Assembly (NCBI GenBank): GCA_009838975.1
Contig: VXQO01000145.1
Span: 1-53,472, forward strand
Length of the DNA: 53,472 nt
DNA from: Gemmatimonadota bacterium
Lineage (GTDB): Bacteria; Gemmatimonadota; Gemmatimonadetes; Longimicrobiales; Gaopeijiaceae
Direction: 5' to 3'
Part shown: in pieces, positions 6,228 through 52,876 of the stretch
Position numbering within the stretch: the stretch's first letter is position 1
How the letters are laid out: each line of letters opens with the position of its first letter
The notes under the pieces: generated by a model
Database searches by the model: none
What the model was told of the DNA's origin: nothing
Seen by the model: the letters and a program-made list of their open reading frames with translations, nothing else
Program-made: the position numbers and the translations under genes

Positions 6228-6254
6228 GCCCGGCGGAAAGAAAGGAGACATACG

Positions 6255-12924: not shown

Positions 12925-14709
12925 TCAGGAACGCGCAGCTTCGTCGAAATCGACGGTATCGGCTGCGACAGGCAGGATGACAGGCATAGCGGGGCGAGCC
13001 TCCGAACTCAGCGCAAGGCGGAAGGCCTCCATGGCCTCCAGGATCCCATCTCCGGCGTGACGGAATTCGTCGGGAATGGCGCGTTGGCGTGCCACTGCAC
13101 GTTGTACCGCCTCCTGTCTGACCTGGTCCGTCACCGCCGATGCCGCATCAGGCCCCCACCGGGCTTCATTGAACGACGCCAATTCTGAACCCAGATACGC
13201 CTTGAATTCCCGGAGAACCGTCTGCTGGCGCGTGAGCTTCTCGCAGTGATAACCCATGGCAGCCAGGCGGATTGCCAGCGGCAACAGTCGGGGAAGCTCC
13301 CTGGACACTCTGGCGATGTAGCGTGAGAACACCGGCAGCTGGTCCGCCGTAAGGCGCCGCCGGATGCCCATGATGCTCAAGTAGAGAAGGTGCTTGCTCA
13401 CCGGCTTGTAGATGTGCGGTATCGGATTGAGGTTTTCCAGCAGGGTCAGGCAGCGCTCGAAGTAGTTCTCCAGCGTCGAATCGTAGATGGTGCCGACGAC
13501 CCGGAGGTACCCCTCCACAAGCGTCCTGGGATCCATCTGCGGCTTGAAGTTCAGGGCAGTGGCGTCGATTTCTACAGGTTTGTCCAACAACCGATTCTCG
13601 CGCTCCAGCCGATCCCACAGATTCGTTCCCTTGAGAGCGGTCAGCAACCCGACCAGCGCGATCGGAATCCCGGCTTCCTGGATGAACTCGATCTGCGCAT
13701 CGAACGCGTTGTCGTCGTCGTCATCGAGGCCGAGGATGAAGCCGCCCAGAACCATCATTCCCTTTTGCTGAATCTTGCGGACGGACGTGAACAGGTAGTT
13801 GTCGTCGCGCCTGTCGAGATTCTGAGGCTTCTTCATCTTCTTGAGCGCCTTCGGATTGGGCGTTTCGATACCCAGGAAGACGGCGTCGAAACCGGCGTCG
13901 ATCATGACGTCCATCAAGTCGTTCATCCGGACGAGATTGACACTCGCTTCGGTGAACAACGCATAGGGATGACCACGCTCCTTTTGCCACTCGGCGATCA
14001 CGGGGAGAAGCTTCGAGACTTCGCGCTTGTTGCCAATGAAGTTGTCGTCCACCAGAAAGAGTGGACCCCGCCAGCCCAACTCGTACAGATGATCGAACTC
14101 AGCCACCATCTGTTCCGGGGATTTTGTTCGCGACACGCGGCCGTACAGCTTCGTGATGTCGCAGAACTCGCAGTCGAAGGGGCATCCCCGCGAGAACTGC
14201 AGGCACATCGAGTGATACTCCCTCATGTCTATGAGGTCGAAACGGGGGATCGGAGCCGTGCTCATGTCCGGCTTCCTCGGGGCGCGATAGACGGTCCGTG
14301 CCGTGCCGTTCTCCAGGTCGCGAAGGAAGGTCGAAAAGGTCTCCTCGACCTCGTCGAGCACAAAATGATCGATTCCCTCCATCTCTTCATGAAACGTGGT
14401 GGGGTGCGGCCCGCCGGCGATGACCGGGACCTGCGCGCGATTGCAGCGCTCCACGACCTCCTCGAGTGAAGGGCGTTGCGGAATCATGGTCGATGTGAAG
14501 GCCAGATCCGCCCACTCCAGGTCGGACTCCTCCAGTGGCGTCACGTTGAGGTCGACCACCCGCAGATTGTACCGGGACGGGAACATCGCGGCCACGGTGA
14601 GCAGGCCGAGTGGAGGGAATGCCGCCTTGATGCCCAGAAGGTCAAGCGCGTAGTTGTTGCCCCAGTAGGTGGGAGGGTGTTTCGGGTAGAGGAGCAGGGC
14701 GTTTGGCAT
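12925..14709 (-). CDS. B12-binding-domain radical SAM enzyme (DUF4070 type)
   Basis: 594 residues. An N-terminal Rossmann-like cobalamin-binding domain (about 1-130) is followed by a radical SAM barrel with the cluster motif CPFDCEFC (Cys176, Cys180, Cys183; CxxxCxxC). The C-terminal 250 residues resemble the DUF4070 extension found in HpnP-type hopanoid methylases and relatives. Such enzymes typically methylate unactivated carbons or phosphinates, or rearrange them. It starts four bases downstream of the stop of the reductase-sulfotransferase gene, so it is the last gene of the PKS operon. C-methylation of the polyketide chain is a plausible role; a role in hopanoid or other lipid modification is also possible. 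Confidence 0.88.
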   Translation of the reverse strand: MPNALLLYPKHPPTYWGNNYALDLLGIKAAFPPLGLLTVAAMFPSRYNLRVVDLNVTPLEESDLEWADLAFTSTMIPQRPSLEEVVERCNRAQVPVIAGGPHPTTFHEEMEGIDHFVLDEVEETFSTFLRDLENGTARTVYRAPRKPDMSTAPIPRFDLIDMREYHSMCLQFSRGCPFDCEFCDITKLYGRVSRTKSPEQMVAEFDHLYELGWRGPLFLVDDNFIGNKREVSKLLPVIAEWQKERGHPYALFTEASVNLVRMNDLMDVMIDAGFDAVFLGIETPNPKALKKMKKPQNLDRRDDNYLFTSVRKIQQKGMMVLGGFILGLDDDDDNAFDAQIEFIQEAGIPIALVGLLTALKGTNLWDRLERENRLLDKPVEIDATALNFKPQMDPRTLVEGYLRVVGTIYDSTLENYFERCLTLLENLNPIPHIYKPVSKHLLYLSIMGIRRRLTADQLPVFSRYIARVSRELPRLLPLAIRLAAMGYHCEKLTRQQTVLREFKAYLGSELASFNEARWGPDAASAVTDQVRQEAVQRAVARQRAIPDEFRHAGDGILEAMEAFRLALSSEARPAMPVILPVAADTVDFDEAARS

Positions 14710-14712
14710 GGT

Positions 14713-17232
14713 CTACCTCGCTTCGTCCAGTACGAGAGCCGAATCGACCCGGCTTGCGACAAATTCGCGGTAGTCGGCGAATGCGGCGTTCACCTTGTCG
14801 CTGGTCAGGCCGTAGTCCGCGATATCGTACTTGTGCCGTTGCTCCAGCCGCCGTTGCTCCTCCTGCTTCCAGAACCAGGCTTTCATCGCCTCAATCGACT
14901 CGGCCTCCATCGGCCAGCCGAACCGACGATAGATGCCGACCACAACTGCGATGGGGTCGCGTACCAGATCGTAGAAGCTCACATCGTGCCAGCGGTGTTC
15001 CAGTTCGGGGTGTGACCGCCGAAACTGAATCGCTCGGCCAAGCATGCGACTCATCGCTCTCAGTTGTTCGGTACCGAGCTCCCTGCGGGGGCGCGGCTCG
15101 CTGATGTCCGACCGGAAGCGCTCCACCAGACTGCACCAGGACCCCATGAGTTCGACTGGTTCGCGATGCGTCTGTATGAACAGGGCGTCGGGATATGCCT
15201 CAAGCAGGGCGCCCAGTTCCATCAGATGGGTCGGCATCTTGAAGATCCATTGGCCCTGGCTGCCCGGGTGACAGGCCCTTCGCTGATAATTGTAGTGCTG
15301 CATGGTGCGGCGATGCACGTGGTAGGCCTCGCGGGTGCCGGTCTCCTCGAGCCAGCGCTCGTACTCGGGCAACCGATATCGAGTCGCGAACACCCATGTC
15401 TTGAGCGACAACCTGAGGATCGGGATATCCTCTTCCGGTTCGTCGAGCCCGGCATGGTGAAGGCCTGCGAGAGTATCAACAATACCCGCCGCTGCGAATA
15501 CGTCCGCCGCCTTGATACGGCGGGGATCCCGGGCAGTGCCGACGACCGTTGCGTAGTCGCCGTCCGGAATGACGGGCTCGACGTATTCGTAGGCCCGCAA
15601 GGCCCAGAACCGCCGGTCCCGGGCCAATAGACGGTGCAGGAAGGTCGTGCCCGTCCTGTTGATGCCCACGATGAACACCGGCCGCTCGATTGGCTGCCGC
15701 CCGATCTCCGGCAGCCGCACGCGCTCTCCGGCCAGTTCGGCATTGTTGCGCAGTATTCGGCACAAGTCGAACACGCAATGCCCGATGCGCTTTGCCAGCA
15801 GGCCGGCTTCGGGAGCGTTGAAGCCCTCGACGAGACGGGCCAATCCATCGAGCATCCACTCGGGGTAGGTGGTGTCGAAGGACACGCCGTTGTCCCTGGC
15901 GTATCGCCGGGCCTGCTTCAGCACGCTGTCCAGGCTGACCCCCAGCGGCGGAATCGCCTGCGGCCATTCTTCCTCATGGTCCCTGACCCAGCGGTTGTAG
16001 CGAACATACCTGGTGAGAGGACCCGGCCAGTTGATGTCACCAGGACAGTCCTCTCGAATGGCCCGGTCGGAGACCGGCAGCGTCTGGACCGTTTCGGAGC
16101 CCCGAAACCAATACGGGGCGAAGTGATCGAACAGGGGCCAGCTCCGGGCCATCGGAGACGCGTCCCCGTGCGCCTGACAGGCGCGCTTGAAAACGGTATA
16201 GGGAACCTCCGGATAATTGAGGCCGAACTCCGCGAGCTGCATGGCCCGGTACGACGGCGCGTTGTTGCAGCAGCTGTAGATGGTGAAGCGCCGATTCTCA
16301 TTCATGGAAATGTCGGTGCACATGCGCGTCAGCGTATCCGCCGGATCGTCGGTGGCCCGCATGGTGAACCCCTTCGGAATCATTCCGACCTCGACCGCCG
16401 CCGCGAAGACAAGCTGTGGAGGGGTGTCCGACTGGGCGTAACCGGTGGAGGCCATGGTGGTTTGCCCAAAACGGAAGACCGCCGCCGGCAAGCCGACCTG
16501 ATGCGCGAACAGGACGGCCTGTTCCGCCACAAGCTTGCTCCAGGCATACCCGAGCAACCCGAGCGGCATCACTTTCTTCATCCGACCCAGGTCCGGCTGC
16601 GCATGGTCGCCGATGTAGCAGTCGCGGTATTCGCCGGCAAAGGAGTGCACGTACTCGGGGAACACACCCATGGTCGAGACGTGAAACAGGTGCTTGAGCC
16701 GGACACTCAGACACAGCCGGAGGACCTCGCGCACTCCGAGAGCGTTTACCTCGCGGAGAGACCGGTAGGACGCGATGAGGTTCGGGTTGGCCGCAAGGTG
16801 GTGGACAGCGTCGATTTCCCGGCACAGGCGGTCGAAGTCGGCTTGCGAGAGCCCGAAACGCGACTGCGAGACATCACCGGCGTAGACGTGGATTCTCGAT
16901 GTGAACGCATCGTCCCAGGTCTCCGCGTGTTCCATGTTGGCGCGCAGTCGCTCGAAACCGTGTTCCGCCGATTCGGCTCGCACGACGCAATGGACCATCA
17001 GTTCGGATTCGTGCGCGAGCAGGTCGCGCACGAGGAAGCGACCGACGAATCCGGTTGCGCCGGTAACCAGAACATGGCGGAAATCCGCGGGTGAAACCGG
17101 GTCCAGCGGCGAGGCGTCTTCGAGCGTGGTGCGGACAACGCGGCGCAGGGCGGTGAGATCGCGCTGGCATTCGGGCGGCAGGGTGCCTGCCAGGGGCGGC
17201 ACCCGGTGCTTCGTCGCGGACGCGAGAGTCAT
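14713..17232 (-). CDS. Thioester reductase-sulfotransferase fusion protein
   Basis: 839 residues with two enzymatic halves. The first (about 50-420) is a NAD_binding_4-type thioester reductase: GATGFVG at 58-64 for NADPH, and YAWSK near 229 as the SDR Tyr-Lys pair. Such domains reduce carrier-bound acyl chains to aldehydes or alcohols. The second half (about 510-800) is a PAPS-dependent sulfotransferase of the Sulfotransfer_3 type; its phosphosulfate loop is VFIVGINRTGTTFLH near 515, and the 3'-phosphate region lies around FIQTHREPVELMGSWCSLVERF. It lies five bases after the PKS gene, which has no thioesterase. The natural reading is reductive release of the polyketide followed by O-sulfation of the resulting alcohol. 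No carrier or adenylation domain is present. The domain calls are strong; the reaction order is inference. Confidence 0.88.
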   Translation of the reverse strand: MTLASATKHRVPPLAGTLPPECQRDLTALRRVVRTTLEDASPLDPVSPADFRHVLVTGATGFVGRFLVRDLLAHESELMVHCVVRAESAEHGFERLRANMEHAETWDDAFTSRIHVYAGDVSQSRFGLSQADFDRLCREIDAVHHLAANPNLIASYRSLREVNALGVREVLRLCLSVRLKHLFHVSTMGVFPEYVHSFAGEYRDCYIGDHAQPDLGRMKKVMPLGLLGYAWSKLVAEQAVLFAHQVGLPAAVFRFGQTTMASTGYAQSDTPPQLVFAAAVEVGMIPKGFTMRATDDPADTLTRMCTDISMNENRRFTIYSCCNNAPSYRAMQLAEFGLNYPEVPYTVFKRACQAHGDASPMARSWPLFDHFAPYWFRGSETVQTLPVSDRAIREDCPGDINWPGPLTRYVRYNRWVRDHEEEWPQAIPPLGVSLDSVLKQARRYARDNGVSFDTTYPEWMLDGLARLVEGFNAPEAGLLAKRIGHCVFDLCRILRNNAELAGERVRLPEIGRQPIERPVFIVGINRTGTTFLHRLLARDRRFWALRAYEYVEPVIPDGDYATVVGTARDPRRIKAADVFAAAGIVDTLAGLHHAGLDEPEEDIPILRLSLKTWVFATRYRLPEYERWLEETGTREAYHVHRRTMQHYNYQRRACHPGSQGQWIFKMPTHLMELGALLEAYPDALFIQTHREPVELMGSWCSLVERFRSDISEPRPRRELGTEQLRAMSRMLGRAIQFRRSHPELEHRWHDVSFYDLVRDPIAVVVGIYRRFGWPMEAESIEAMKAWFWKQEEQRRLEQRHKYDIADYGLTSDKVNAAFADYREFVASRVDSALVLDEAR

Positions 17233-17237
17233 GTGAG

Positions 17238-20200
17238 TCAGCCGTCCGACACGGAAACCGACTTCGCTGCGCTGGCGGTCGTGGGACGACGGCCGGATCC
17301 GTCGCTGTCTGTGACGGAGGCGGATTCGCCGTTCGGGAAGTGATCCTCGATCCTGTTTGCAAAGGGCGAGCTTCGGCGTCGTGCCCGGTGCCGGAATTGC
17401 TCGGAAGCGGCCGATGAACCGTAAACCTCCGCCACATCCGCAGCCTCTTCGTCCGATCCCGTGCCCTCGACGATCGACCGGGCGAGGGACAGGGCCGTGG
17501 CGGTGGTCATGAGCTCCAGGGCGCTGACCTGGTAGTTGAACTGCGTTTGGACAAAGGCGCCCAGTTCGGCGACCGATATCGAGGTGAGCCCGAAGCTCGA
17601 CAATGGCTCGGTCATGTCGCCTTCATCGTGGCCACAGAGTTCGGCCACCTTCGCGGAGATCTGTGCCACGACACTCTCGATGGTCAGATCACCGCCAGCG
17701 TCCACGTCGAACGCCGCCTGATTGTTCAGCAGGCGTCCGTTGCGCATGTAATCGGGAGAATCGACGGACCATGGCGGGTTCGAGAACAGCGCGGTGACCA
17801 GATGGTCATGGCCGGGCATGGTGCGCAGGGCGTAGTCGAGATTGGCAATCGCGAAGTTGGCGCTGACGGTGGTCATGCCGGCCATTCTCATCAATCTCAT
17901 GATGTGGAGGCTGCGCGCCGCCATGCCGACCTCGGTGACCGGGCCCAGGTTGTACGAGAGACCCGGGAGGCCGCGCCGACAACGCCAGGCGGCCAACCCG
18001 TCCAGGTAGGCGCTCGCCCCGCTGTAGTTAATCTGTCCGAGATTGCCGAACGTCGACGCAATGGACGAAAACAGCACGAAGTAGTCCAGATCACACTCGG
18101 CAGTGGCATGGTGCAGATTCAGCGCACCCTGGGCCTTGGGCGCGAACACCCTGCGGAGGGACTCCGGGGATGTATCGAGGAACGAACGATCCTCGAGGGT
18201 TCCAGCGAGGTGGAACACACCCTTCAGCGGTCGCTGCATCCGAGCTACACAGCGCCGGACATCGGCCTCGCTCCGCACATCACCCGCGAAGATGTCGATC
18301 TCGTAGTCCTCGTCCATCTTCGACAGGGTAGTCTTCTGGCGAATCCACTCCAGGTCACGGCTCCTGTCCCGATCCCGGTCCATCAGGGTCAGGTGCCGCG
18401 CTCCCACCGCGATCAGGTAGGGCACGAAGCGCAGGCCAAAGCCGCCCAGGCCGCCTGTCACCAGATAGGTCGCATCGGGGTCGAGGAAGGGCCGTGTATC
18501 GGCGATCCCGAACCCGCGTTCGGTGCCGGCAGGTGGCGCCGTCAGGACCAGCTTCCCCTGGTGCTGGCCGGTAGTCATGAGGCGCAGCGCCCTGGCATAG
18601 TCCCGGTAAGGGGAAGCAGTTAGGGCGGGTGGAGGCACTGCGCCCTCCGCCATCAGGTCCAGACAAGCTTGGGAAAGCATGTGTGACAGGACGGGATCGT
18701 CGAGCATCAGCCGGTCGACATCGATCGCCGCAAAACGGAGATTCTTGCGGAACACGCGCATGCTCAGCGAGTTGTCGGTGTAGATGTCGACCTTGCCGAT
18801 CTCGCAGTGCCAGCCGGAGGGGCGCAGTGCCTTGAGACAGAGCGCGATGTGATGCCCGGCGAGCGAATTGAGCACCACGTCGACGCCCTCGCCGTCCGTA
18901 GCCTCCATCAGATCGTCGTACCACTCGTGGCTGTGCGAGTCGAAGGCCCCGCGGGCGCCCATTGCCAGCAGTTGGTTGCGTTTGCTCTCGTTGCCCGCGG
19001 TGGCGTAGATCTCCGCGCCGACGTGCTTCGCCAGGGCAATGGCGGCCTGTCCGACGCCGCCCATTGCCGAGTGGATGAGGACCCGCTGTCCCTCCCTCAG
19101 CCGGGCCAGGTAAACGAGCGAGTAGTACGCGGTCACATAGACGGACAACGACGACGCGGCCTCTTCCATGCTGATCCGCGGCGGCTTCAGGAAGGCGAGA
19201 TGCTCGTTGACCACGACCCGGTTGCCGATACAACCACCCACCGTGACGGCTACCTCGTCACCGACCTGCAGTCGCGTCACGCCATCGCCGATGCGCCGAA
19301 CCACTCCGCTGCCCTCTATACCCACTTCGCGTCCCAGCGCCGAGCGCTCGTAGGCCATGGCGGGGAGAAGGCCCAGGGTAACCATCACGTCGCGGAAGTT
19401 CAACGCAGCTGCAGCGACCTCGATCTCCACTTCGTCCGGGCCCGGCGGGGGCACTTCGCAGGTCGTCATCTGCAGCCCGCTGACCTGGCCGGGGTTGTCC
19501 AGGCGGAGCCGGTAGGTTGGATCTTCGCCCACGGGGACAAGGGGGGCGCGCTCCCGCAGGCTGATCACCCGTGGGGCCCAGAGCCGTCCCTCCCACACCG
19601 CAAGTTCGCGCTCGCGCAGGTCGATCCGGTCCAGAAGGGCCAGGGTTTCCAGATCGCTCTTCGCACCCAGGTCCACGAGCCGGAAATCGATTCCGGTATC
19701 CTCGGCAAGGAGCTCCAGGGCGATGCTGCGGACCGCTCCCCAGAGGGCGCTGCCGCGTGGATCGTCCACGTGGCGGACGGCCCCGCGCGTCACGATGGTC
19801 AGGCGGCAGTTGCGGGTCGCGTTCTCCAGGCGGAATGGGGCCACGGCCTGAAGGAACGAGACCAGCTGCCAAACCGCCCGTTCTCCGGTGGGATCCGTGG
19901 GATCCGGGCCGCAGAAGATGTCGATCGCCGCCAGATCGGCCGCCGAGGGCCATTCCTCCAGCGTCATGAAGTTGCCATCCTCGTAACTGGCCCACGGAAC
20001 CTGGTGGACCCCGGGTGAATCGAGCAGGGCCGCCCAGTCCGAAGCCCAGCTGTCCGGCTCGCCGATCACCCACCGTGGCCGTGGAGTTTCGGTCGCGCCG
20101 TCGGTGTCGAGCGGGTCGCCATGGCGCTGCGGCGCCTGCAGGAGCGTCGTGCGCTTCCCCGCATGCACGCTCGTCCAGCCCTCGCCCGGATCAACCGCCT

Positions 20201-23200
20201 CGCCGTCGGCGTGGAAGACCACCGCGAGCCCCCCCGCAACGGTCAGCCGATGCAGGAGTGCCCACTGCTCCGGCCCGAACGCCGCAGCGTCGGAGTGCAG
20301 GAACAGGATCTCGGCGGCGGCGGGACGCAGCAGGCCCGAGGTCATCTCCAGGTCCTGTACCTGCTCCGACATCGGATCGAGCGGCGCAAAACGAAGCGCG
20401 GCCTCTCGATGATTGAAGGCCTCGTAGTGGGCCCGTGCGCACTCCTCGTCCTTGCCGAGAATCCAGAACTCGGTCTGGGCGTCCGGACCCGAAAGATACT
20501 TAATACATTTGTTTAGTATTGTGGAGTCGGGCTCTCGTTCACCGGCCACCTCGATCACATGGCACGAATAGCGGGCCCCGAGAGTCCCCTGCTCGAACGC
20601 GGCGATCAGCGCGGTGGGATCGACCTCTCCGTCCCGGATTGCATTGCCGATTGACGGCGCCGGAGGCACGAACCTGGGCTGCCATGCCACGACGTGCTTG
20701 CTGTCCGGTACGTCGCTCCAGCGGGGATTGCTGTTGAATGAGTGGTACTCGCCGATGTGTGCGATCAGGTGTCCCGTGGCGCGATCGTAGAAGCTGAGTC
20801 GGCCGATGTAGAGTTCGCCGAGCGGCTTGGTGTACTGGCCGCGTTCGTCCACATCGTACCATTCACCCGTATCCACGAGGTGACAGGCGATCCGCGGTCC
20901 CGTCGGGGGACGCAGGAAGGTCACGTTACAGGCCCGCTGCGGCATGGAGAAGAAATCGGGCAGGCGCATCAGGTAGCGCAGGAAGATCTGCAATCCGCCG
21001 TCCGTCAGCGGCGGATACATGACATAGCCCTCCTCCTGGGCGGTCACCCACAGCTCTTCATCGACTTCTATGTCGAGCAGCATGTCCGTCGAGTTGGCAT
21101 CCATGTCGATCTGCTTGACGCTGCGGAACTCGGGGCCGAACTCGAAGTCGTCGCCTACGACCGCTTCGATCTGTTCGTAGAACTCGTCACCGGTGCCCAG
21201 GGGCTCGGGATCGAAAGCCGAGGCCAACACCTCGTCCAGTGTCGCGTAGGCGTCGAGCGGATGATCGGCATCCACCCGATGGACCCGGCCCCGGCAGTGC
21301 AGCGTACCCGAGTCGTCGTCTTCGAAGGAACGGGACGAAATGGTGAAGGTGAACTGGTCCGGAGCGTTGGGAATCTGAAAAAGGGCGGTCTGTAGCCGCA
21401 CCGGCGTCCTGCCCACGGGAGTGTGCTGCAGGAACTCGATCTCCTCGATGTTGATGGGGTTCCCGGAGAACGCCTGGAGGAGCAGTTCGATGTAGCCCGC
21501 GGCCGGAATGATGGGCGCGCGATGAACCCGGTGGTCGGTCAGCCAGGGGAAATCCTGCTCGGAAAGGCGCGCCTCGAAGAGAATGTGATCGCACGGTACC
21601 CTGTGGCCGACCAGCGGCCCGTGCGAATATTGGCCGCGCTGGACGAACATCTCGTCGTCGACCAGGTCGTCGTGGGTGGTCGTTTGTTCCTGCGGATGCC
21701 CCGGGAGGAGGTGGGCGATGGGTTCCGGGCGCGGATACTGGGAAGCGAAGTCCAGTTCGACGCCGTTCCGGTACAGGGCTCCCAGGGCTTCCTGGAATCC
21801 GAGACACGCATCCTGGTCCTTCATCAGCGTGGGGATACAGACCGGGACCGAAGAGGCGCCTTCCACGCACTGCCGGATCAGCGGCTGCAGCGCGCCGTGC
21901 GGCGCGATCTCCAGAACAACATCGGGACGGTAGTCCCTGACCACGGTCTCCATCGCCGCAGCGAAGTGCACCGGCTGGCGGATGTTGGACCACCAGTACT
22001 CGGCGTCCAGGCGCCGCGTCGCCGTTCCGGTCACCGAAGACACCATCGGAACGTGTGCGTCGAAAGCGCATGCGTCGAGGAAGGACAGGGAGGCGATCAC
22101 GTCGTCGTGCAGCGGGTCCATCGCCGTCGAGTGGAACGCAATGTTGCCGGGGATCAGCCGATTCTGCAGGCCGCGGCGCTCGAGTTCCACCAGGACGGGC
22201 TGCAGCGCGGGTTCCTTGCCGCAGACCACGGTGTTGGCAGGCGCGTTCTCGCAGGCAATCTCGACCTGTGGGGCGCGGTGGTTCCTGCGCTCGAACGGAA
22301 CCCGCAACTCCTCCAGCAGCGTCTCCACACCCGGCCGGTCCAGGCCGATCGCGAGCATCCGTCCCGAGCCGGCCACTCTCTGCTGAAGGGTGGCGCGGTG
22401 ATAGACCAGGTGCGTGGCCTCCGCCAGGGACAGGGCCCCGCTGGCGTAGGCTGCAGCCACCTCGCCCGAGCTGTGTCCGATCACGCAGTCCGGGTGTAGG
22501 CCCCAGGTCGAGAGCAGTTCAACCAGTGCGCACTGAATCATGAAGATCACGGGCTGGGCCAGCTGGACTTCGTTCAGTTCCTCCTGGCTCGCCGCAAAGC
22601 AGGCATCCCGCAGCGATGTCCCGGAGTGCTTCCGCCACTCCTCTTCGACGGCGTCAACCACACGACGGAACACTGGGTCGGCATCGTAGAGCGCGCGCCC
22701 GCATCCCGCCCACTGCGTGCCCTGGCCCGAGAACACCATCGCCACCCGGCGCTCAACTTCTTCCCCGGTGGAGACGTCGGACGGTTCTTCCACGAAAGCG
22801 TCCAACGCCTCTGCGAGCTGTTCACGATCTCGCACGGCGAAAGCGGCCCGTACGGGGAAATGGGTGCGCCTGCGGCTGAGATTGCCCGCAAGTGTGTACA
22901 GGTCGATGTCGCGCCTGGCGAGGATCTCCCCCAGGCTCCGGGCAGCCTCCGCCAGGGCGTTGGTGTTGCGCGCGGACAGCGGAATCATGTATCCGGCGCG
23001 TGGAGCCGGAGGCACCGACCAGGCCCTTGGCCGCTCCGGCCGGTATTCCCTCACCACGCAGTGCCCGTTGGCCCCCCCGAACCCGAATGAATTGATGCCG
23101 ACCACGACCGGGTAATCCGGGAAGGGCTCGCAAGCAGTCTGGACCTGCATGGGGCAGCTATCGAAGTCGATTTCCAGATTCGGAGCCAGAAAGTTTTTCG

Positions 23201-24365
23201 AGATGGGCGCGAAGGTCCGGCGCTGCATCATGAGGATGACTTTCAGCAATGCGGCGCTGAACGCCGCCGCCTCCAGATGCCCCACGTTGCTCTTGACGCT
23301 GGCGACGCGCAGCGGGACATCGCGCTCGACGCCCCCGAAAGCCTGCGCAATCGCGTTTCCTTCGATGCGGTCCCCCACGACGGTGCCGGTCGCATGTGCT
23401 TCGATGTAGTCGAAGTCCTCGGGGCCGAGTCCGGCGCGTGCGCAGGCCGTGCGCATCAGATCGACCTGCGAATGACGGGTGGGTGCGGTGATGTACCGCC
23501 CCTGGGCCATACCCTCGGCGTCGTCGGCGGTCCCGGCCGTGTTCACCGCGGTGGCTTCGATCACGGCGAAGATGTGGTCGCCGTCCCTTTCGGCCACCTC
23601 CAACGGCTTGATTGCAAAGACGAACGCCCCTTCCGCGCGCATGTACCCGTTGGCGTCGGCGTCGAAGGAGTGACACCTGCCATCGGGACTGATGACCCCC
23701 AGAGCGTTGAACGAAGCGCTGCAACGAGCCGATCCAAGGTAGGTGGCGGCCCCCACCAGAGCCTGTTCGCAGTCGCCCTGCCGCATCGCGTTGATGCCCG
23801 TATGAAGAGCGGACAGGGACGCCGAGCAGGCCGTGGAGCACGCGAGCGACGGCCCCATGAGATTGAGGTGGTACGAAATGCGGTTGGCCAGCATCGACGC
23901 GTCGATGCTCAGGATGGAGAACTCGTTGGTCCCGTACAGCGCCCGCCAGTTGGCCGTGGACGCGACCTGGGCCCCGATGAATACGCCCGTGGAACTGTTC
24001 CGAAGTGCGTTCAGATCCCACCCGGCGTGTTCGCAACTCTCCCACGAGCAGCCCAGCAGCATCCGGATCTGCGGATCCATGTACGCCATCTCGTTGCGCG
24101 AGACCCCGAACAGGCCGCTGTCCATCCGCTGCTCGCCCTGGTCACGTATCAACCCTTCGTAGGCACTGCCGAAGCGGCCCGGGCCCGAGAATCCGCCGAT
24201 GGGCTGGTAACCGCGACCGTAGCGGTCGGCTACGGGCTCCCTGACTATCTCGCGTTCGGAGAGGAGCCGCCAGAAGTCGTCGTCGCAGCGGATGCCGCCC
24301 GGCATCCGGTACGCGTACCCGACAATGGCGACGGGATAAGCAGAGTTCAACGGGTCTGATCTCAT
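17238..24365 (-). CDS. Single-module reducing type I polyketide synthase
   Basis: 2375 residues with domain order KS-AT-DH-(linker)-ER-KR-ACP. KS: Cys180 in STACSAS, His324 in EAHATGT and the KSNVGH block. AT: GHSSG with Ser632 and an AFH-type motif suggesting malonyl-CoA. DH: His945 in DHRVHRAPIIP and Asp1122 in TDGGLQ. ER: GGVGQAA near 1767. KR: GGLGGFG near 1969 and Tyr2114 in NYSGASA. ACP: Ser2262 in GLTSIS. A degenerate region lies between DH and ER (about 1250-1560), where a methyltransferase sits in many iterative PKSs; no SAM-binding glycine motif is visible. No thioesterase is present. Departures from consensus are HATGT for HGTGT, Arg for Gly in the DH motif, Ser for Asn in the KR YxxxN, and Thr before the ACP Ser. 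A single complete module suggests iterative synthesis of a reduced, lipid-like chain, as in mono-modular PKSs of sponge symbionts and fungal reducing PKSs. The Ser-rich tail after 2300 may dock to the next protein. Confidence 0.95.
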   Translation of the reverse strand: MRSDPLNSAYPVAIVGYAYRMPGGIRCDDDFWRLLSEREIVREPVADRYGRGYQPIGGFSGPGRFGSAYEGLIRDQGEQRMDSGLFGVSRNEMAYMDPQIRMLLGCSWESCEHAGWDLNALRNSSTGVFIGAQVASTANWRALYGTNEFSILSIDASMLANRISYHLNLMGPSLACSTACSASLSALHTGINAMRQGDCEQALVGAATYLGSARCSASFNALGVISPDGRCHSFDADANGYMRAEGAFVFAIKPLEVAERDGDHIFAVIEATAVNTAGTADDAEGMAQGRYITAPTRHSQVDLMRTACARAGLGPEDFDYIEAHATGTVVGDRIEGNAIAQAFGGVERDVPLRVASVKSNVGHLEAAAFSAALLKVILMMQRRTFAPISKNFLAPNLEIDFDSCPMQVQTACEPFPDYPVVVGINSFGFGGANGHCVVREYRPERPRAWSVPPAPRAGYMIPLSARNTNALAEAARSLGEILARRDIDLYTLAGNLSRRRTHFPVRAAFAVRDREQLAEALDAFVEEPSDVSTGEEVERRVAMVFSGQGTQWAGCGRALYDADPVFRRVVDAVEEEWRKHSGTSLRDACFAASQEELNEVQLAQPVIFMIQCALVELLSTWGLHPDCVIGHSSGEVAAAYASGALSLAEATHLVYHRATLQQRVAGSGRMLAIGLDRPGVETLLEELRVPFERRNHRAPQVEIACENAPANTVVCGKEPALQPVLVELERRGLQNRLIPGNIAFHSTAMDPLHDDVIASLSFLDACAFDAHVPMVSSVTGTATRRLDAEYWWSNIRQPVHFAAAMETVVRDYRPDVVLEIAPHGALQPLIRQCVEGASSVPVCIPTLMKDQDACLGFQEALGALYRNGVELDFASQYPRPEPIAHLLPGHPQEQTTTHDDLVDDEMFVQRGQYSHGPLVGHRVPCDHILFEARLSEQDFPWLTDHRVHRAPIIPAAGYIELLLQAFSGNPINIEEIEFLQHTPVGRTPVRLQTALFQIPNAPDQFTFTISSRSFEDDDSGTLHCRGRVHRVDADHPLDAYATLDEVLASAFDPEPLGTGDEFYEQIEAVVGDDFEFGPEFRSVKQIDMDANSTDMLLDIEVDEELWVTAQEEGYVMYPPLTDGGLQIFLRYLMRLPDFFSMPQRACNVTFLRPPTGPRIACHLVDTGEWYDVDERGQYTKPLGELYIGRLSFYDRATGHLIAHIGEYHSFNSNPRWSDVPDSKHVVAWQPRFVPPAPSIGNAIRDGEVDPTALIAAFEQGTLGARYSCHVIEVAGEREPDSTILNKCIKYLSGPDAQTEFWILGKDEECARAHYEAFNHREAALRFAPLDPMSEQVQDLEMTSGLLRPAAAEILFLHSDAAAFGPEQWALLHRLTVAGGLAVVFHADGEAVDPGEGWTSVHAGKRTTLLQAPQRHGDPLDTDGATETPRPRWVIGEPDSWASDWAALLDSPGVHQVPWASYEDGNFMTLEEWPSAADLAAIDIFCGPDPTDPTGERAVWQLVSFLQAVAPFRLENATRNCRLTIVTRGAVRHVDDPRGSALWGAVRSIALELLAEDTGIDFRLVDLGAKSDLETLALLDRIDLRERELAVWEGRLWAPRVISLRERAPLVPVGEDPTYRLRLDNPGQVSGLQMTTCEVPPPGPDEVEIEVAAAALNFRDVMVTLGLLPAMAYERSALGREVGIEGSGVVRRIGDGVTRLQVGDEVAVTVGGCIGNRVVVNEHLAFLKPPRISMEEAASSLSVYVTAYYSLVYLARLREGQRVLIHSAMGGVGQAAIALAKHVGAEIYATAGNESKRNQLLAMGARGAFDSHSHEWYDDLMEATDGEGVDVVLNSLAGHHIALCLKALRPSGWHCEIGKVDIYTDNSLSMRVFRKNLRFAAIDVDRLMLDDPVLSHMLSQACLDLMAEGAVPPPALTASPYRDYARALRLMTTGQHQGKLVLTAPPAGTERGFGIADTRPFLDPDATYLVTGGLGGFGLRFVPYLIAVGARHLTLMDRDRDRSRDLEWIRQKTTLSKMDEDYEIDIFAGDVRSEADVRRCVARMQRPLKGVFHLAGTLEDRSFLDTSPESLRRVFAPKAQGALNLHHATAECDLDYFVLFSSIASTFGNLGQINYSGASAYLDGLAAWRCRRGLPGLSYNLGPVTEVGMAARSLHIMRLMRMAGMTTVSANFAIANLDYALRTMPGHDHLVTALFSNPPWSVDSPDYMRNGRLLNNQAAFDVDAGGDLTIESVVAQISAKVAELCGHDEGDMTEPLSSFGLTSISVAELGAFVQTQFNYQVSALELMTTATALSLARSIVEGTGSDEEAADVAEVYGSSAASEQFRHRARRRSSPFANRIEDHFPNGESASVTDSDGSGRRPTTASAAKSVSVSDG

Positions 24366-24461: not shown

Positions 24462-24740
24462 CTACGACTCGTCAACGAACTCCTCTACCACCCGGTCGGC
24501 GGTTTCGAACATCTGCTGGAGCCACTGTTGCCGCTTGGCTCTCATCTGCTTGACCTTCTCCCACAGCGCGTCGCGGATCCTCTTCGCTGCTTCCTCGCGC
24601 GCTTGACTGGAAAGGTCGGTATCATTCTGGAACTCGTATTTCTCGATCGCGAAAGCCGCGATGTCGAGGATGTTCTCGCCAACGATGTTGAGATCGACGG
24701 CGCTCCTGATCGTGATGGTCTTTTCCTGGCGGTTCGTCAT
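24462..24740 (-). CDS. Unknown 92-residue charged helical protein
   Basis: It starts at an ATG preceded by TTGGAGC. The protein is highly charged and predicted largely helical, with an amphipathic central stretch (AREEAAKRIRDALWEKVKQMRAKRQQWLQQMF) and an acidic C-terminus (EEFVDES). No signal peptide, membrane segment, Cys or recognisable catalytic motif is seen. It lies between the STAS gene and the PKS on the same strand, so it is likely cotranscribed. I do not recognise a family. Good ribosome site, GC-typical codon use and context support a real gene. Confidence 0.72.
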   Translation of the reverse strand: MTNRQEKTITIRSAVDLNIVGENILDIAAFAIEKYEFQNDTDLSSQAREEAAKRIRDALWEKVKQMRAKRQQWLQQMFETADRVVEEFVDES

Positions 24741-24812: not shown

Positions 24813-25160
24813 TCAGCCATTCGCAAAGGACTCGATCGCCGTCGCCCGGGAATCGTAGACATTGATGATCTGGTCGAATCCGCTTACCGCAACGATGTCG
24901 CGGTTGAACTGCGAGAGCGAGCACAGCCCGAATCTCTTGCCCGGACCGGTGAATCGTCTGGCGATGACCAGGCACACGCGAAGGCCGGCACTGCCGATGA
25001 AGGCCACCCGCTCGAAATCGAGGACCAGATGGCGGTCATCGGGCCCCAGACCCTCTTCCAGCAGTCTCTGGAAGTCCTCGGCGCTGCCGCTGTCGATGCG
25101 GCCCAGAAGGGAGGCGATCAGCGTATCGCCGGACCTTGCCCACTTCAGGTCGACTGTCAT
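24813..25160 (-). CDS. STAS-domain anti-sigma-factor antagonist-like protein
   Basis: 115 residues forming a single STAS domain. The phosphorylatable Ser is Ser57 in AFIGSAGLR, at the same position as in SpoIIAA/RsbV proteins. The ATG follows an ACGGAGC ribosome site. In this family an RsbW-like kinase phosphorylates the Ser and so releases a partner. The upstream gene encodes a permease with an RsbW-like C-terminal domain, a ready-made partner. A close paralog of the same layout lies at 52880-53248. Whether it binds the permease domain, a sigma factor or something in the PKS pathway is unknown. Confidence 0.9.
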   Translation of the reverse strand: MTVDLKWARSGDTLIASLLGRIDSGSAEDFQRLLEEGLGPDDRHLVLDFERVAFIGSAGLRVCLVIARRFTGPGKRFGLCSLSQFNRDIVAVSGFDQIINVYDSRATAIESFANG

Positions 25161-25229: not shown

Positions 25230-26111
25230 TCAAGGGCCAGACCATCTGTTTACGCCCACCGTGAGGATGTCGACGTTGTGGTATTCCCGGTGCTTCACCG
25301 ATGTGGCGTGATGCCGCAGCAGCGCCAGCGAGAGATCCCGCTCGCTGGTCGGGTCCGGACGGTCGCCGAAGAGCATCATCTGGTTTTCGAGGTTGCCGGC
25401 ATGCGTGGCTGCGGTGAATTCCAGTGACGCGCCCTCCCGGGCGTTCCGGGCCACCACGCGCAGGCGACGTTCCTCGTTGGCTGGTCCGTGTTCATCCTCT
25501 TCCTGTCGCAGGAGACTCAGCAGCGCTTCCTCGGACGCCGCCCGGAGCCGCTCCGTCGCACTCGTACCCCATCCGTATCGAGCCGCGAAGTCGACCACGA
25601 AACGATCGAGTCGGGGAAGGCTTTCGGGGCGAAGCGGCACCTCCGTCCTGATGCGGCGGGGTCCGGTCAGTTCGAGGAAGAGGGTCAGGAGAAGGATGGT
25701 GAGCCCCCCGGCGGTCAGGCCGTTTGCCAGCATCCGACCGGTGGGCGTCGCAAGGTGGGCGGGGAATATGGCCTGGAACTGGATGCCCACCCCTATCCAG
25801 AGCGAAAGTCCGGCGATCAGGGCATTCTGCCGGTGCGCGCCTTCGTGGAAGACGACGCGCATTCCCTGCGCGAAGGTCAGTCCGAAGATCACCGTGAGGT
25901 AGGCGCCGAGCACCGGAAGCGGAATCGAGAGGATCAGGGCCACGATCTTGGGCACGAACGCCAGACACACGAACACGATTCCGATATGGACGCCGATCCT
26001 CCTGGCTGCCACACCGATTCCCTCCGCCATGGAGATGCCGGCGACGTAGGGCCAGGGCGGCAGCACCCCCGCGAATCCGGAGAGCAGAGTGCCGACGCCG
26101 CAAGCGTTCAC
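25230..26111 (-). CDS. Permease C-terminal half fused to RsbW-like ATPase domain (frameshifted)
   Basis: Written from a GTG at 26111, 293 residues. The first part (AVNACGVGTLLSGFAGVLPPWPYVAGISMAEGIG..., then two or three helices and an amphipathic loop) continues the SLC23/NCS2 transporter begun by the next entry. After a last helix (LTAGGLTILLLTLFLEL) comes a soluble domain of about 130 residues, RFVVDFAARYGWG...RLRAASEEALLSLL... ending NVDILTVGV, which resembles HATPase_c_2 anti-sigma kinases. Its N-box is degenerate (Ser where Asn is expected), so ATPase activity is doubtful. The usual NAT signature (QNxGxxxxTRxxG) is also poorly matched. One extra G in the C6/G6 run at 26114-26119 would join both halves in frame. 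As written, the halves overlap as GTGA, so a real two-protein split is the alternative. Confidence 0.75.
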   Translation of the reverse strand: MNACGVGTLLSGFAGVLPPWPYVAGISMAEGIGVAARRIGVHIGIVFVCLAFVPKIVALILSIPLPVLGAYLTVIFGLTFAQGMRVVFHEGAHRQNALIAGLSLWIGVGIQFQAIFPAHLATPTGRMLANGLTAGGLTILLLTLFLELTGPRRIRTEVPLRPESLPRLDRFVVDFAARYGWGTSATERLRAASEEALLSLLRQEEDEHGPANEERRLRVVARNAREGASLEFTAATHAGNLENQMMLFGDRPDPTSERDLSLALLRHHATSVKHREYHNVDILTVGVNRWSGP

Positions 26112-26974
26112 GGCCCCCCGACCTTGCGGAAGTCGATCGCGCGAGGCGCGCGGTATGACAGCCGCTGCATGCGCACCGAATCTCCCACCTGCCTGACCGT
26201 GATCACGAAGGTCACGAACAGGAAGCCGGGCAGCAGGATCCAGAAGCCCGGGCCGAAGCTCAGATCCAATGCGAGCGGCGGCAATGCCGGCATGCCGATC
26301 CAGCCGGCATCGGCCAGGCGGCCAAGGTCCAGGATCCCGAAGAATGCGGCGGTCACACATCCCGCGCCCAAGCCGAGTACCGGTGTCCAGGCCCGCACCA
26401 TCCGGGGGGCGCGAAGCATCAGACCGACGACGATCAGGATCGTCACCGCGGCGACCGTCGGTGCGGCGGCCGGGTGCGCGTGGTCGGGTACGCGCGTCAG
26501 CATGGCGAACCCCATGGGCATCACCGTCACCGACACAAGCGCCAGGAGCGTACCGGACACCATCGGAGTAATGACGTGCCTGAGACGAGAGAGGCTGGCC
26601 GAAAGGATGAACTGGCTGATTGCAGATGCGACCACGAGTATCCCGAGCAGGGGAGGTCCACCCGTGACCAGCGCGAGAACCGCTACGCCGATGGCAGCGC
26701 CGGAAGCGCCCATCACGGTCAGGCTTCCCCCACCGAATGCGCCCAGGCGGCTCGCCTGCAGGACGGTGACGATTCCGCCGATCAGCATGCTGGCGAAGAT
26801 CGCCCACGACAGGTAGCTGTCGTCCAGGTCGGCCGCGCGCGCCACGATCGTGGTGACCACGACGACCGGAACGCACACCAGGATGCCGACCTGCAAGCCG
26901 ATGATGAGAGACATCAAGCCGGGAGGCTTCTCATCGGCCGCGTAACGCAGTCGAGTACCTTCAGTACGGCTCAA
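26108..26974 (-). CDS. SLC23/NCS2-like permease, N-terminal half
   Basis: 288 residues with about eight hydrophobic helices, beginning LMSLIIGLQVGILVCVPVVVV and including FGGGSLTVMGASGAAIGVAVLAL. The late segment FVITVRQVGDSVRMQRLS aligns with the conserved GD-containing helix 8 region of xanthine/uracil permeases. It ends abruptly at a TGA right after DFRKVGG, where family members continue GAVNA-G; that continuation is in the adjacent frame. The protein is thus the front of a single transporter, probably for a nucleobase-like or other anionic solute. The gene starts 42 bases from the divergent reductase gene at 27017, so the two may share a promoter region. Confidence 0.8.
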   Translation of the reverse strand: MSRTEGTRLRYAADEKPPGLMSLIIGLQVGILVCVPVVVVTTIVARAADLDDSYLSWAIFASMLIGGIVTVLQASRLGAFGGGSLTVMGASGAAIGVAVLALVTGGPPLLGILVVASAISQFILSASLSRLRHVITPMVSGTLLALVSVTVMPMGFAMLTRVPDHAHPAAAPTVAAVTILIVVGLMLRAPRMVRAWTPVLGLGAGCVTAAFFGILDLGRLADAGWIGMPALPPLALDLSFGPGFWILLPGFLFVTFVITVRQVGDSVRMQRLSYRAPRAIDFRKVGGP

Positions 26975-27016
26975 CTGTCACCCTCTCCCCGTCCAGGAAC
27001 GCTCCGAAGAGCCCGA

Positions 27017-28093
27017 ATGGCCGACTTGGTGCTGCACACCCAAGGACCTGTGCTTGTCACCGGCGCAAATGGATACGTCGCGTCGTGGCTGGTCAAGGGG
27101 CTCCTGGAACAAGGTCTCGACGTGCATGCGACGGTGCGCGACCCCGCGGACCCGGACAAAACCGGCCACCTCCGGGCGATCGCGCAAAGCGCTGCCGGCA
27201 CGCTGTCCCTGTTCCGGGCGGACCTGCTGGATCCGGCCGGGTTCGACCGGGCCATGATGGAGTGTACACTCGTGTTCCACACGGCATCACCGCTCATTGT
27301 GCGCAATGTCGAAGATCCGATGCGCGATCTCGTCGAACCGGCGACGCGAGGTACCGGGCATGTGCTCGACGCTGCCAATCGCGCGCCGTCGGTGCGGCGG
27401 GTCGTCCTGACCTCCAGCATCGTCGCGACCTACGGGGATGCCGCCGATTTGGAGGACGTGGGCAGGGACCGGTTTGACGAGAGCCACTGGAACACGACCA
27501 GCAACGTGCGCCATCAGCCCTACTCGTACTCCAAGACGCTCTCGGAGCGGCTGGCATGGGAGATGGCCGCGAAACAGGACCGGTGGGATCTGGTGGCCGT
27601 AAACCCGGGACTGGTCCTGGGGCCCGGCCTGAGCCGCCATACGAAGGCGGAGGGCGTCCTGGTCATGCGGGATTTCGGGAACGGGTACTACCGCTTCGGC
27701 GCCCCCGACCTCGAATTCGCGATCGTGGACGTGCGCGATGTCGCCGAAGCTCACGTGCGCGCTGGGATGCTGCCGGATGCGAACGGGCGCCACATCCTCG
27801 TCGCCGAGTCGCGAACGCTGTTCGAGATCGGCGCCGTCCTGCGGTCACATTTCGGCGACGCCTTTCCGTTCCCGCGACGAACCGTCTCCAACACCGCCGC
27901 GCTGATGCTCGCTTCGCGGCGGGGAATCCCCCAGTCCGTCGCGAAACGCAATCTGGGGTATCCGCTCAGATTCGACAGCAGCCGCGCAAGTGACGCCCTG
28001 GGAATGAGCTTCCGATCGCCCGAAGAATCCATCGTCGACCACTTTCAACAACTGCTGGACGACGGCCTCGTCAAACCGATGGCGAGTCGCTGA
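27017..28093 (+). CDS. NAD(P)-dependent extended-SDR reductase (DFR-like)
   Basis: 358 residues from the ATG at 27017. GANGYVA near residue 16 is the Rossmann nucleotide loop, and YSYSK near 170 is the catalytic Tyr-Lys pair, with upstream LTSSIVATYG supplying Ser. The arrangement matches the dihydroflavonol-4-reductase/3-beta-HSD-like family of short-chain dehydrogenases, acting on ketones or aldehydes of secondary metabolites. It is divergent from the permease-PKS run with a 42-base gap and could serve that pathway, for example in reducing a released aldehyde, but this is only positional. The upstream open extension is antisense to the permease and rejected. Confidence 0.88.
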   Translation: MADLVLHTQGPVLVTGANGYVASWLVKGLLEQGLDVHATVRDPADPDKTGHLRAIAQSAAGTLSLFRADLLDPAGFDRAMMECTLVFHTASPLIVRNVEDPMRDLVEPATRGTGHVLDAANRAPSVRRVVLTSSIVATYGDAADLEDVGRDRFDESHWNTTSNVRHQPYSYSKTLSERLAWEMAAKQDRWDLVAVNPGLVLGPGLSRHTKAEGVLVMRDFGNGYYRFGAPDLEFAIVDVRDVAEAHVRAGMLPDANGRHILVAESRTLFEIGAVLRSHFGDAFPFPRRTVSNTAALMLASRRGIPQSVAKRNLGYPLRFDSSRASDALGMSFRSPEESIVDHFQQLLDDGLVKPMASR

Positions 28094-29259: not shown

Positions 29260-29311
29260 TCAGGGATCTCCCAGGGTTGAGGAGGAGGGGTTGAGGAGAT
29301 TGTGAACATTT

Positions 29312-50004: not shown

Positions 50005-50122
50005 GCATGCCTCCCTGAGACCTTGTTGCGCCTGTCAGGCCCGTGTAAGCTTGTGTTCCGGATGAGCATAGGCGTTGGTGCCGACCGCTCGAACGCTCCA
50101 CGACGGTAACACCGTGTCCCCA

Positions 50123-51052
50123 ATGTCGACCAGCGCAAAAGCCCCTTCACGCTACCCTGACACGCATCGCGCGGCCCTCGAATCGGAGGCCATCGAGATC
50201 ATCCGCGAGGGTATCGCGGTTGCGGCGCGACCCGTCATGCTCCATTCCATCGGCAAGGACTCTTGCGTCCTCCTGCACCTGGCCCGCAAGGCGTTCTGGC
50301 CCGCCCCGCCTCCCATGCCGCTGCTGCACGTCGACACCACATGGAAGTTCCGCGACATGATCGCCTTCCGAGACCGGATGGCGGCGGAGACCGAAGTCCG
50401 CCTGATCGTCCACACGAACCGGGAGGGTGTCGACGCGGGCATAACCCCGTTCACCCACGGGTCGGACCACTACACCCAGGTGATGAAGACGGTGGCCCTG
50501 CGCCAGGCGCTCGACGCGGGCCGTTACGACATGATCCTTGTCGGAGCGCGCCGGGACGAAGAAAAATCCCGTGCCAAGGAGCGAATCTTCTCACTTCGCA
50601 ATGCCCGGCACAAGTGGGATCCCAAAGCCCAGCGGCCGGAGTTGTGGCACCTCTACAACACCCGTCTCAAGGACGGCGAGTCCCTCCGCATCTCCCCGCT
50701 CTCCAACTGGTCGGAAGCCGACGTCTGGCGCTACATCGCCGCGGAGGCAATCCCCATCGTACCGCTTTACCGTGCCGCCGAGCGCCCCGTGGTGGAGCGC
50801 GACGGCCAGTTGATCATGGTCGACGACGACCGCATTCCGCTCGCACCCGGCGAGGTCCCCACCCGCTGCCGTGTCCGCTTCCGCACGCTCGGATGCTATC
50901 CGCTCACGGCCGCGGTCGAGAGCGACGCGGACACACTGGACGCGATCATCGCCGAAACGCTCGCGACCGACCACTCCGAGCGTGAAGGCCGCCTCATCGA
51001 CCACGACTCGGAAGCCTCGATGGAGCGCAAGAAGAGGGAGGGCTACTTCTAG
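50123..51052 (+). CDS. cysD: Sulfate adenylyltransferase subunit 2
   Basis: 309 residues from the ATG at 50123. The PP-loop-type ATP site is SIGKDS (42-47), and the block [20 protein letters not shown] is characteristic of CysD rather than PAPS reductase. With CysN it activates sulfate with ATP to APS. The ORF runs directly into cysNC with no gap (stop 51050-51052, ATG 51053). In this window sulfate activation could feed cysteine synthesis or PAPS for the sulfotransferase at 14713-17232. Confidence 0.96.
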
Positions 51053-52876
51053 ATGGCGACAACCCTCAGGTTCGTCCTCTGCGGCAGCGTGGACGACGGC
51101 AAAAGCACGCTGATCGGGCGCATTCTGTACGACTGCCGCCAGGTGTTTACGGATCAGATGCAGAGGGTTGAAGAGGACTCGCACCGTTACGGCACCCAGG
51201 GCGGCGCACCCGACCTCGCTCTCCTCATGGATGGCCTGCAGGATGAGCGCCGGCAGGGCATCACCATCGATGTCGCCTACCGCGGCTTCCGGACGCCCCG
51301 GCGGCGCTTCATCGTCGCGGACGCGCCCGGCCACGAGCAGTACACGCGCAACATGGCGACCGGCGCATCCACGGCCGACGCCGCGGTCGTGATGGTGGAC
51401 GCGCGCAAGGGAATCCTGCCCCAGACCGCCCGCCACACCCGGATCGTGGCGATGTTCGGGGTGCGCCACATCGTGCTGGCGGTCAACAAGATGGACCTGG
51501 TGGCCTGGGACCGCGGCACCTTCGAGTCGATCGACGCCGCTTACCGGACGGTGGCCGAAGAGGTGGGACTCGCTCAGGTCGCATCCTTCCCCGTTTCCGC
51601 TCTCACCGGCGACAACGTGACGCGGCGTTGTGCGCACACTCCGTGGTACCGCGAGCCGGGCCTGCTCGCGCACCTGGAAGGGTTGGAGACCGAGCCGCCC
51701 GCCGCGCGGCAGCCCTTCCGCATGCCGGTCCAGTACGTCAACCGCCCGAACCCGGACTTTCGCGGCTACTGTGGCCGAATCGTGGCCGGCGACGTGTTGC
51801 CCGGCGACCGTGTGCGCGTCACGCCCGCGGGAACGGCCGCCGAGGTCGAGTCGATCGTGGTGTGGCAGGGCACGCGCGACAGCGCCACGCGGGGCGATTC
51901 GGTCACGCTCACCCTCAAGCCCGACGTCGCCGTCTCGCGAGGCGACGTCATTGTGGCCGCCCAGGACCCGCTCGAAGCCGCGGACCAGTACCGGGCGCGG
52001 CTCCTGTGGATGGGCGACGAACCGCTGACGGTGGGACGCCCGTACCGGCTGAAGCTGCACACACACGAAGCGGGCGCCACCGTGACCCGAATCAGGCACC
52101 GTGTCGACGTGGAGGACGGCAGCGAACTCGCCGCCACGCAACTCGAACTCAACGACCTGGGCGTGATCAACCTCGCCACCAATCGACCGATCCCCTTCGC
52201 TCCCTTCGACGAGTCGCGCGAGCTGGGCGGCTTCATTCTCATCGATCGCGCGACCAACGCGACCGTGGGCGCCGGGACGATCACCTATTCACTCATGCGC
52301 GCGGCAAACGTCAAGTGGCAGGATTTCGACATCACCGGCGAGGTTCGCGCCGACCTCAAGGGCCAGCGCGCTCGCTGCCTGTGGCTGACCGGCCTCTCCG
52401 CTTCCGGCAAGTCGACCGTGGCCAACCTGCTGGAGCGGCACCTCGTGAGCGAAGGCCGGCACACCTACCTGCTGGACGGGGACAACGTCCGCCACGGTCT
52501 CAACCGGGACCTCGGCTTCACCGAGGCCGACCGCGTCGAGAACATCCGCCGCGTTGCCGAAGTCGCCCGCCTCATGGTGGACGCCGGGCTGATCGTGATC
52601 GTGTCCTTCATCAGCCCCTTCCAGTCCGAGCGCGATTTTGCCCGCAGCCTGTTCGACAAGGACGAATTCATGGAGATCTTCGTCGACGCGTCGGTGGAGA
52701 CGTGCGCCCGCCGCGACCCGAAGGGCCTCTACACCAAGGCGAAGCGGGGCGAAATCAGGAACTTCACCGGTGTGGACAGTCCCTACGAGCGCCCCGAACG
52801 CCCGGATCTGCGCCTCGACACCGAGAAGCTCTCGCCGGAGGAGTGCGTGGAGCTGGTGATCGAAAGGCTGGTCTAG
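51053..52876 (+). CDS. cysNC: Bifunctional CysN-CysC (ATP sulfurylase GTPase and APS kinase)
   Basis: 607 residues. The N-terminal GTPase of sulfate adenylyltransferase has GSVDDGKST (11-19), DAPGHEQY and NKMD, with EF-Tu-like beta-barrels up to about 430. The C-terminal APS kinase has its P-loop GLSASGKST near 447 and FVDASVETCARRDPKGLYTKAKRGEI, including the conserved Asp and Arg. The fusion yields PAPS directly. Both catalytic halves look intact. No cysH, cysI or cysQ is nearby, so PAPS use in reduction cannot be confirmed here. Confidence 0.96.
   Translation: MATTLRFVLCGSVDDGKSTLIGRILYDCRQVFTDQMQRVEEDSHRYGTQGGAPDLALLMDGLQDERRQGITIDVAYRGFRTPRRRFIVADAPGHEQYTRNMATGASTADAAVVMVDARKGILPQTARHTRIVAMFGVRHIVLAVNKMDLVAWDRGTFESIDAAYRTVAEEVGLAQVASFPVSALTGDNVTRRCAHTPWYREPGLLAHLEGLETEPPAARQPFRMPVQYVNRPNPDFRGYCGRIVAGDVLPGDRVRVTPAGTAAEVESIVVWQGTRDSATRGDSVTLTLKPDVAVSRGDVIVAAQDPLEAADQYRARLLWMGDEPLTVGRPYRLKLHTHEAGATVTRIRHRVDVEDGSELAATQLELNDLGVINLATNRPIPFAPFDESRELGGFILIDRATNATVGAGTITYSLMRAANVKWQDFDITGEVRADLKGQRARCLWLTGLSASGKSTVANLLERHLVSEGRHTYLLDGDNVRHGLNRDLGFTEADRVENIRRVAEVARLMVDAGLIVIVSFISPFQSERDFARSLFDKDEFMEIFVDASVETCARRDPKGLYTKAKRGEIRNFTGVDSPYERPERPDLRLDTEKLSPEECVELVIERLV

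Follow-up and report, generated by a model that had tools for sequence, protein, structure and literature searches.

Gene content of the swf locus

The window, that is, the whole 53,472-nucleotide stretch of Gemmatimonadota DNA that was analysed, carries three complete open reading frames on the minus strand at positions 12925-24365. The gaps between them are only 5 bases (17233-17237, swfA to swfB) and 3 bases (14710-14712, swfB to swfC), and this packing on a shared strand suggests that the three genes form one operon. The coordinates and gaps are as reported in a first-pass annotation made from the letters alone, and Pfam bears out the domain anatomy claimed there for all three genes:

17238..24365 (-), swfA: type I PKS/FAS of 2375 aa, one module used iteratively; Pfam domains, all on the minus strand, KS 23031-24335, AT 21759-22736, DH 20766-21617, ER 18543-19442, KR 17934-18473 and ACP 17478-17663
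14713..17232 (-), swfB: thioester reductase (NAD_binding_4, 16123-17076) joined to a PAPS sulfotransferase (Sulfotransfer_3, 14905-15681), 839 aa
12925..14709 (-), swfC: B12-binding domain (14329-14622), radical SAM domain (13696-14199) and DUF4070 (13225-13626), 594 aa

The belief that no cluster with this exact gene set had been described does not hold. Della Sala et al. described this three-gene operon in 2013 under the name swf, for “sponge symbiont widespread FAS”, found in sponge bacteria; in that account swfA is a PKS/FAS with the order KS-AT-DH-ER-KR-ACP, swfB combines a reductase and a sulfotransferase, and swfC is a radical SAM enzyme (PMC3908369). Every sequence feature of swf that we tested is present in the window: the SwfA module and its motifs, the SwfB fusion, the CX3CX2C motif of SwfC and the same-strand gene packing. 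Judged by these features, the operon is the swf operon, here in a Gemmatimonadota bacterium from a probably sponge-associated lineage. Chance occurrence is ruled out because more than 20 further genomes carry the swf genes, with identities of about 50-97%. The operon is thereby confirmed as real, intact, conserved and already known. What we add is the Gemmatimonadota host phylum, the linkage to PAPS genes and the wider conserved locus.

The swf genes are one of two PKS types, the other being sup, reported as widespread in high-microbial-abundance sponges. Their product has been undescribed since 2013, so the match to swf is not a match to a known pathway with a different product, which the first-pass annotation had named as an outcome that would count against it. 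Searches of the window with Rfam found no RNA element, a search of viral contigs found no relative, and a sigma-70 promoter scan, uninformative at the window's G+C, found no promoter.

Properties of the encoded proteins

Six motifs have been described as specific to SwfA: DPQI/V replacing DPQQR, HATGT, GHSSGE, IAFH, QCALVEL and FSGQGTQW, with IAFH suggesting malonyl extension (PMC3908369). All six are present here, as DPQI(97), HATGT(324), FSGQGTQW(545), QCALVEL(611), GHSSGE(630) and IAFH(742), and the catalytic motifs are intact in the sequence. Among solved structures, SwfA matches mycocerosic acid synthase best, a PKS that makes long chains iteratively. The Pks2/MAS family (NF041183) is also its best match in NCBIfam, with a score of 889.8 bits that lies below the 2400-bit equivalog cut-off. 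SwfA shares the domain order KS-AT-DH-ER-KR-ACP with these mycobacterial lipid PKSs and differs from them in its malonyl-type AT motif. The mode of chain release also differs: mycobacterial MAS and Pks2 products are released via Pap/FadD partners, whereas swf has a fused reductase-sulfotransferase. Pfam detects no thioesterase in SwfA or elsewhere in the operon. The genome encodes a single ACPS-family phosphopantetheinyl transferase, in a 270-aa frame of Sfp-like size, which agrees with the published requirement for Svp in place of E. coli AcpS.

In SwfB, the reductase scores 205 bits against TIGR01746 of NCBIfam, slightly below the 213-bit cut-off, and the sulfotransferase half matches Sulfotransfer_3 of Pfam at 2.8e-36. 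The nearest solved relatives are the MxaA reductase (4u7w) and a sulfotransferase-like chain (2zq5). Across 10 SwfB homologues, the reductase motifs TGxxGxxG and Y229-x3-K233 are conserved and the sulfotransferase motifs 526-RTGTT-530 and R690-x7-S698 are invariant. We take RTGTT and R690/S698 to be the 5ʹ-phosphosulfate and 3ʹ-phosphate sites expected of sulfotransferases. Loss of the PAPS-binding residues had been named as grounds for giving up the sulfation proposal; in a sequence alignment, these motifs are present and align with those of the solved structures 2zq5 and 2z6v. SwfB is the only Sulfotransfer_3 protein of its genome, and the second profile searched, Sulfotransfer_1, has no match there. 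Several genomes of family f7 and genus g1 encode a further sulfotransferase that stands alone and shares about 35% identity with the sulfotransferase half of SwfB (for example G072:C54:32431-33489); none of this type was found in the window genome.

SwfC has the motif C176-x3-C180-x2-C183, whose cysteines are invariant in 9 SwfC homologues, and has been considered a possible methyltransferase (PMC3908369). It reaches no NCBIfam equivalog and exceeds the cut-off of no characterised B12 radical SAM family; for the HpnR-type methylases (TIGR04367), the score is 58.6 bits against a cut-off of 650. The gene is usually present beside swfAB; it is truncated at one relative's locus (L033, 5536-5955, G192), was not found next to swfAB at another (L037, G096), and is lacking in the published pPSA11D7. 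Because swfC is truncated or missing at some swf loci, SwfC is best seen as a tailoring component. A partial second copy of swfB lies at the end of the G096 contig (C19:38947-39375). The AlphaFold models of SwfB (mean pLDDT 48.8) and SwfC (55.3) are poor and unfit for a fold search.

Flanking genes and colinearity with pPS11G3

The genes around the operon that bear on its interpretation are:

24462..24740 (-), small protein of 92 aa encoded immediately upstream of swfA; counterpart of ORF19 of pPS11G3 / POR_0546 and equal to it in length
24813..25160 (-), STAS protein of the anti-anti-sigma type, 115 aa; counterpart of ORF18 of pPS11G3 and equal to it in length
25230..26974 (-), permease of the SupE type (Xan_ur_permease) that carries a cytoplasmic domain at its C-terminus; counterpart of ORF17 of pPS11G3
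27014..28093 (+), SDR of the epimerase/dehydratase type, NAD-dependent; many relatives have it close to swf, sometimes directly after swfB
44352-45515, hypothetical protein with DUF3179, colinear with pPS11G3
45639-48716, TonB receptor, 1025 aa here and in pPS11G3
48733-50004, aminotransferase, 423 aa here and in pPS11G3
50075..51052 (+), cysD, ATP sulfurylase small subunit (PF01507)
51053..52876 (+), cysNC, ATP sulfurylase GTPase and APS kinase, which makes PAPS; the genome's only APS kinase

The published fosmid pPS11G3 (JX946307), from a Plakortis simplex symbiont, has the swf genes in the same order as the window (PMC3908369). SwfB is 839 aa long in both; SwfA has 2349 aa in pPS11G3 and 2375 in the window, and SwfC has 585 and 594. 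We compared the two regions by gene order, strand, size and motifs taken from the published tables, and at least 17 genes besides swf match in order, strand and size. The shared order runs from the aminotransferase through the TonB receptor, the DUF3179 hypothetical gene, an amidohydrolase, an S9 peptidase, three beta-lactamase-type genes and a hypothetical gene; then an FAD oxidoreductase, an aminomethyltransferase, two FAD oxidoreductases, a second aminomethyltransferase and an oxidoreductase on the opposite strand; and then the permease, the 115-aa STAS protein, the 92-aa protein, swfA, swfB and swfC. ORF15 is the only pPS11G3 reading frame that lacks a counterpart in the window. The organism that pPS11G3 came from was called unresolved in 2014 (PMC4245539). 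Because of this gene-by-gene colinearity, its host is likely a member of the Gemmatimonadota, which gives the fosmid a probable host phylum. The cysD-cysNC pair, just past the aminotransferase in the window, falls outside the fosmid.

The 92-aa gene stands beside swf in most relatives; its product has no Pfam family above the cut-off. The permease reading frame shifts at about 26108-26160 in the window assembly and is single in the relatives L023 and L033; the shift is either an assembly error or the mark of a recent pseudogene. The minus-strand block at 28147-34926, with two aminomethyltransferases (GCV_T) and three FAD oxidoreductases, recurs in pPS11G3 and at L062 and probably serves methylamine or dimethylglycine-type catabolism. 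Downstream of swf, a SusC-like TonB-dependent receptor and SusD-family pair (3282-7523, plus strand) is likewise kept beside swf at L045, L047 and L052.

Proposed pathway and product

We propose that SwfA would build an acyl chain iteratively on its own ACP from malonyl units, and that the SwfB reductase domain, with NADPH, would free this chain from the ACP as an aldehyde or alcohol. The sulfotransferase domain of SwfB would then transfer the sulfo group of PAPS to a hydroxyl. The simplest acceptor is the newly formed terminal hydroxyl, and the product would then be an alkyl sulfate. Where present, SwfC may act in tailoring, such as B12-dependent C-methylation, and CysD-CysNC, encoded in the same region, would be the source of PAPS. 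We give this reading as a whole (iterative building of an acyl chain, its release by reduction, O-sulfation, optional C-methylation and PAPS from CysD-CysNC) a probability of roughly 0.6. We infer the pathway chemistry, chain length, substrate, product, sulfated hydroxyl and role of SwfC. Reductive release followed by sulfation, the route suggested in the first-pass annotation, stands as a proposal and would correspond to the (methylated) alkyl sulfate already put forward as the swf product (PMC3908369).

The same operon could sulfate elsewhere: at an internal hydroxyl that escaped full reduction, or on another acceptor molecule, with the reductase alone setting the chain end as an aldehyde or alcohol. 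Iterative PKSs with a single module can omit reductive steps, the two SwfB domains lie about 145 residues apart and need not act in sequence, and an SDR is conserved around the swf locus. However, both activities are fused in every full-length SwfB homologue recovered, which favours sequential action on one substrate. Sulfation at another site is possible, and we consider it rather unlikely.

No alkyl sulfate is known as widespread in sponges (PMC3908369), and the best-ranked results of our literature search on alkyl sulfates from sponge symbionts added nothing to the swf papers. When the complete swf cluster was expressed in E. coli, no product could be detected (PMC3908369). The PAPS linkage described below suggests why: this first attempt could have failed for want of a PAPS surplus or accessory genes, and possibly of cobalamin (B12).

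PAPS supply

In the window and in 14 of 25 relatives, an APS kinase gene lies on the swfB contig, at a distance of 2.5 to 39 kb; the genomes measure about 2.8 to 5 Mb. Five loci of a sister lineage (family f7) have cysD, cysNC, the permease and the 92-aa gene immediately preceding the swf genes on the same strand. In the Gemmatimonadota sample, 33 of 34 genomes with swfB have an APS kinase, whereas 90 of the 264 that lack swfB do (Fisher p = 3e-13, with kinship among genomes ignored). The pair could nevertheless be incidental, ordinary sulfur assimilation genes that lie near swf, whose chemistry then need not involve PAPS. The 90 genomes with an APS kinase and no swfB would fit such a coincidence, as would genus g4, where swf and cysNC are on different contigs; linkage is likewise missing in some fragmented assemblies. 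We consider coincidence improbable, given the position of cysD-cysNC at the head of the swf gene row in the sister lineage and the presence of an APS kinase in all 15 swf-bearing genomes of the window's genus and in none of its three swf-lacking ones.

Sulfur assimilation also offers little outlet for PAPS in these bacteria. The sulfite/nitrite reductase domain (NIR_SIR) was found in none of 15 swf genomes, whereas the same profile matches 11 of 14 control genomes, and CysH was not found in the window genome, where PF01507 matches CysD only. Since the window genome lacks both, PAPS is not drained into assimilation there and probably serves sulfation, not the synthesis of cysteine. Most simply, swf bacteria make PAPS in order to sulfate something, with swf as the leading candidate. 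The placement of swf beside a PAPS-making gene pair, in bacteria that lack sulfite reductase, thus gives independent genomic support for sulfation. A literature search combining swf, PAPS and Gemmatimonadota, in which few subscription journals were covered, found no paper drawing that link, and the papers searched do not describe the co-occurrence of swfB with APS kinase or the lack of sulfite reductase either.

A PKS and a sulfotransferase also co-occur in the curacin A and olefin synthase systems, and sulfation as a leaving-group step (beta-sulfation, then decarboxylative elimination to a terminal alkene) was considered in PMC3908369; we regard it as very improbable here, since unlike those ST-TE systems the operon has no thioesterase, its reductase would remove the carboxylate instead, and the sulfotransferase half convincingly matches only 2zq5 and 2z6v in the PDB, with no CurM/OLS sulfotransferase at E up to 10.

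Distribution and probable exchange of swf genes

Among the 298 Gemmatimonadota genomes searched, 34, from two families, carry SwfB-like fusions, either whole or as fragments at contig ends, according to MAG data. At all 20 relatives' loci fetched for synteny, swfA and swfB occur together; the gene orders are A-B-C, A-C-B and C-A-B. A constant swfA/swfB pair with swfC in varying order is expected for one pathway, a set kept by function. The MAGs with relatives are titled Gemmatimonadetes, Gemmatimonadota, Candidatus Palauibacter rhopaloidicola, Defluviicoccus and Gammaproteobacteria. Several relatives come from isolates coded RHO, which fits a Rhopaloeides sponge source. PAUC43f/Palauibacterales have been reported from sponges including Rhopaloeides odorabile, and matches to azinomycin, cyphomycin and similar biosynthetic gene clusters have been reported for Palauibacterales.

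Clusters that are swf-like or orthologous have been described in Nitrospirota, Latescibacterota and Acidobacteriota (PMC9426513) and in the Tectomicrobia “Thalassonella” (PMC10227082); neither paper names Gemmatimonadota as swf hosts. We found no earlier report of such hosts in the literature searched, which covered few subscription journals. At two loci from MAGs labelled Defluviicoccus (L053) and Gammaproteobacteria (L054), SwfA and SwfB are about 52-63% identical and swfC is on the opposite strand. Short fragments resembling swfA lie close to the cluster in the L054 genome (C29:38712-39217). Another locus labelled “Gammaproteobacteria” (L046) lies on a contig of genome G224, which groups with the window's family.

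Within a single cluster, the genes differ strongly in their identity to those of the window. In part of genus g4 (G045 / L026, L046), SwfB is about 90%, SwfA 80% and SwfC 64% identical to the window's proteins, and in other g4 genomes SwfB is 66% identical. Such differences in sequence identity point to exchange of swfB between lineages, which would give mosaic clusters. More speculatively, swf could be the centre of a more extensive sulfolipid locus (cysD-cysNC-permease-92aa-swfC-swfA-swfB) that supplies its own PAPS and whose product would be an alkyl sulfate conserved among sponge symbionts and perhaps abundant. Inside sponges, such a locus might pass from one bacterial phylum to another, and SwfB would be the interchangeable part on which the product depends; we advance this extension tentatively and think it somewhat doubtful.
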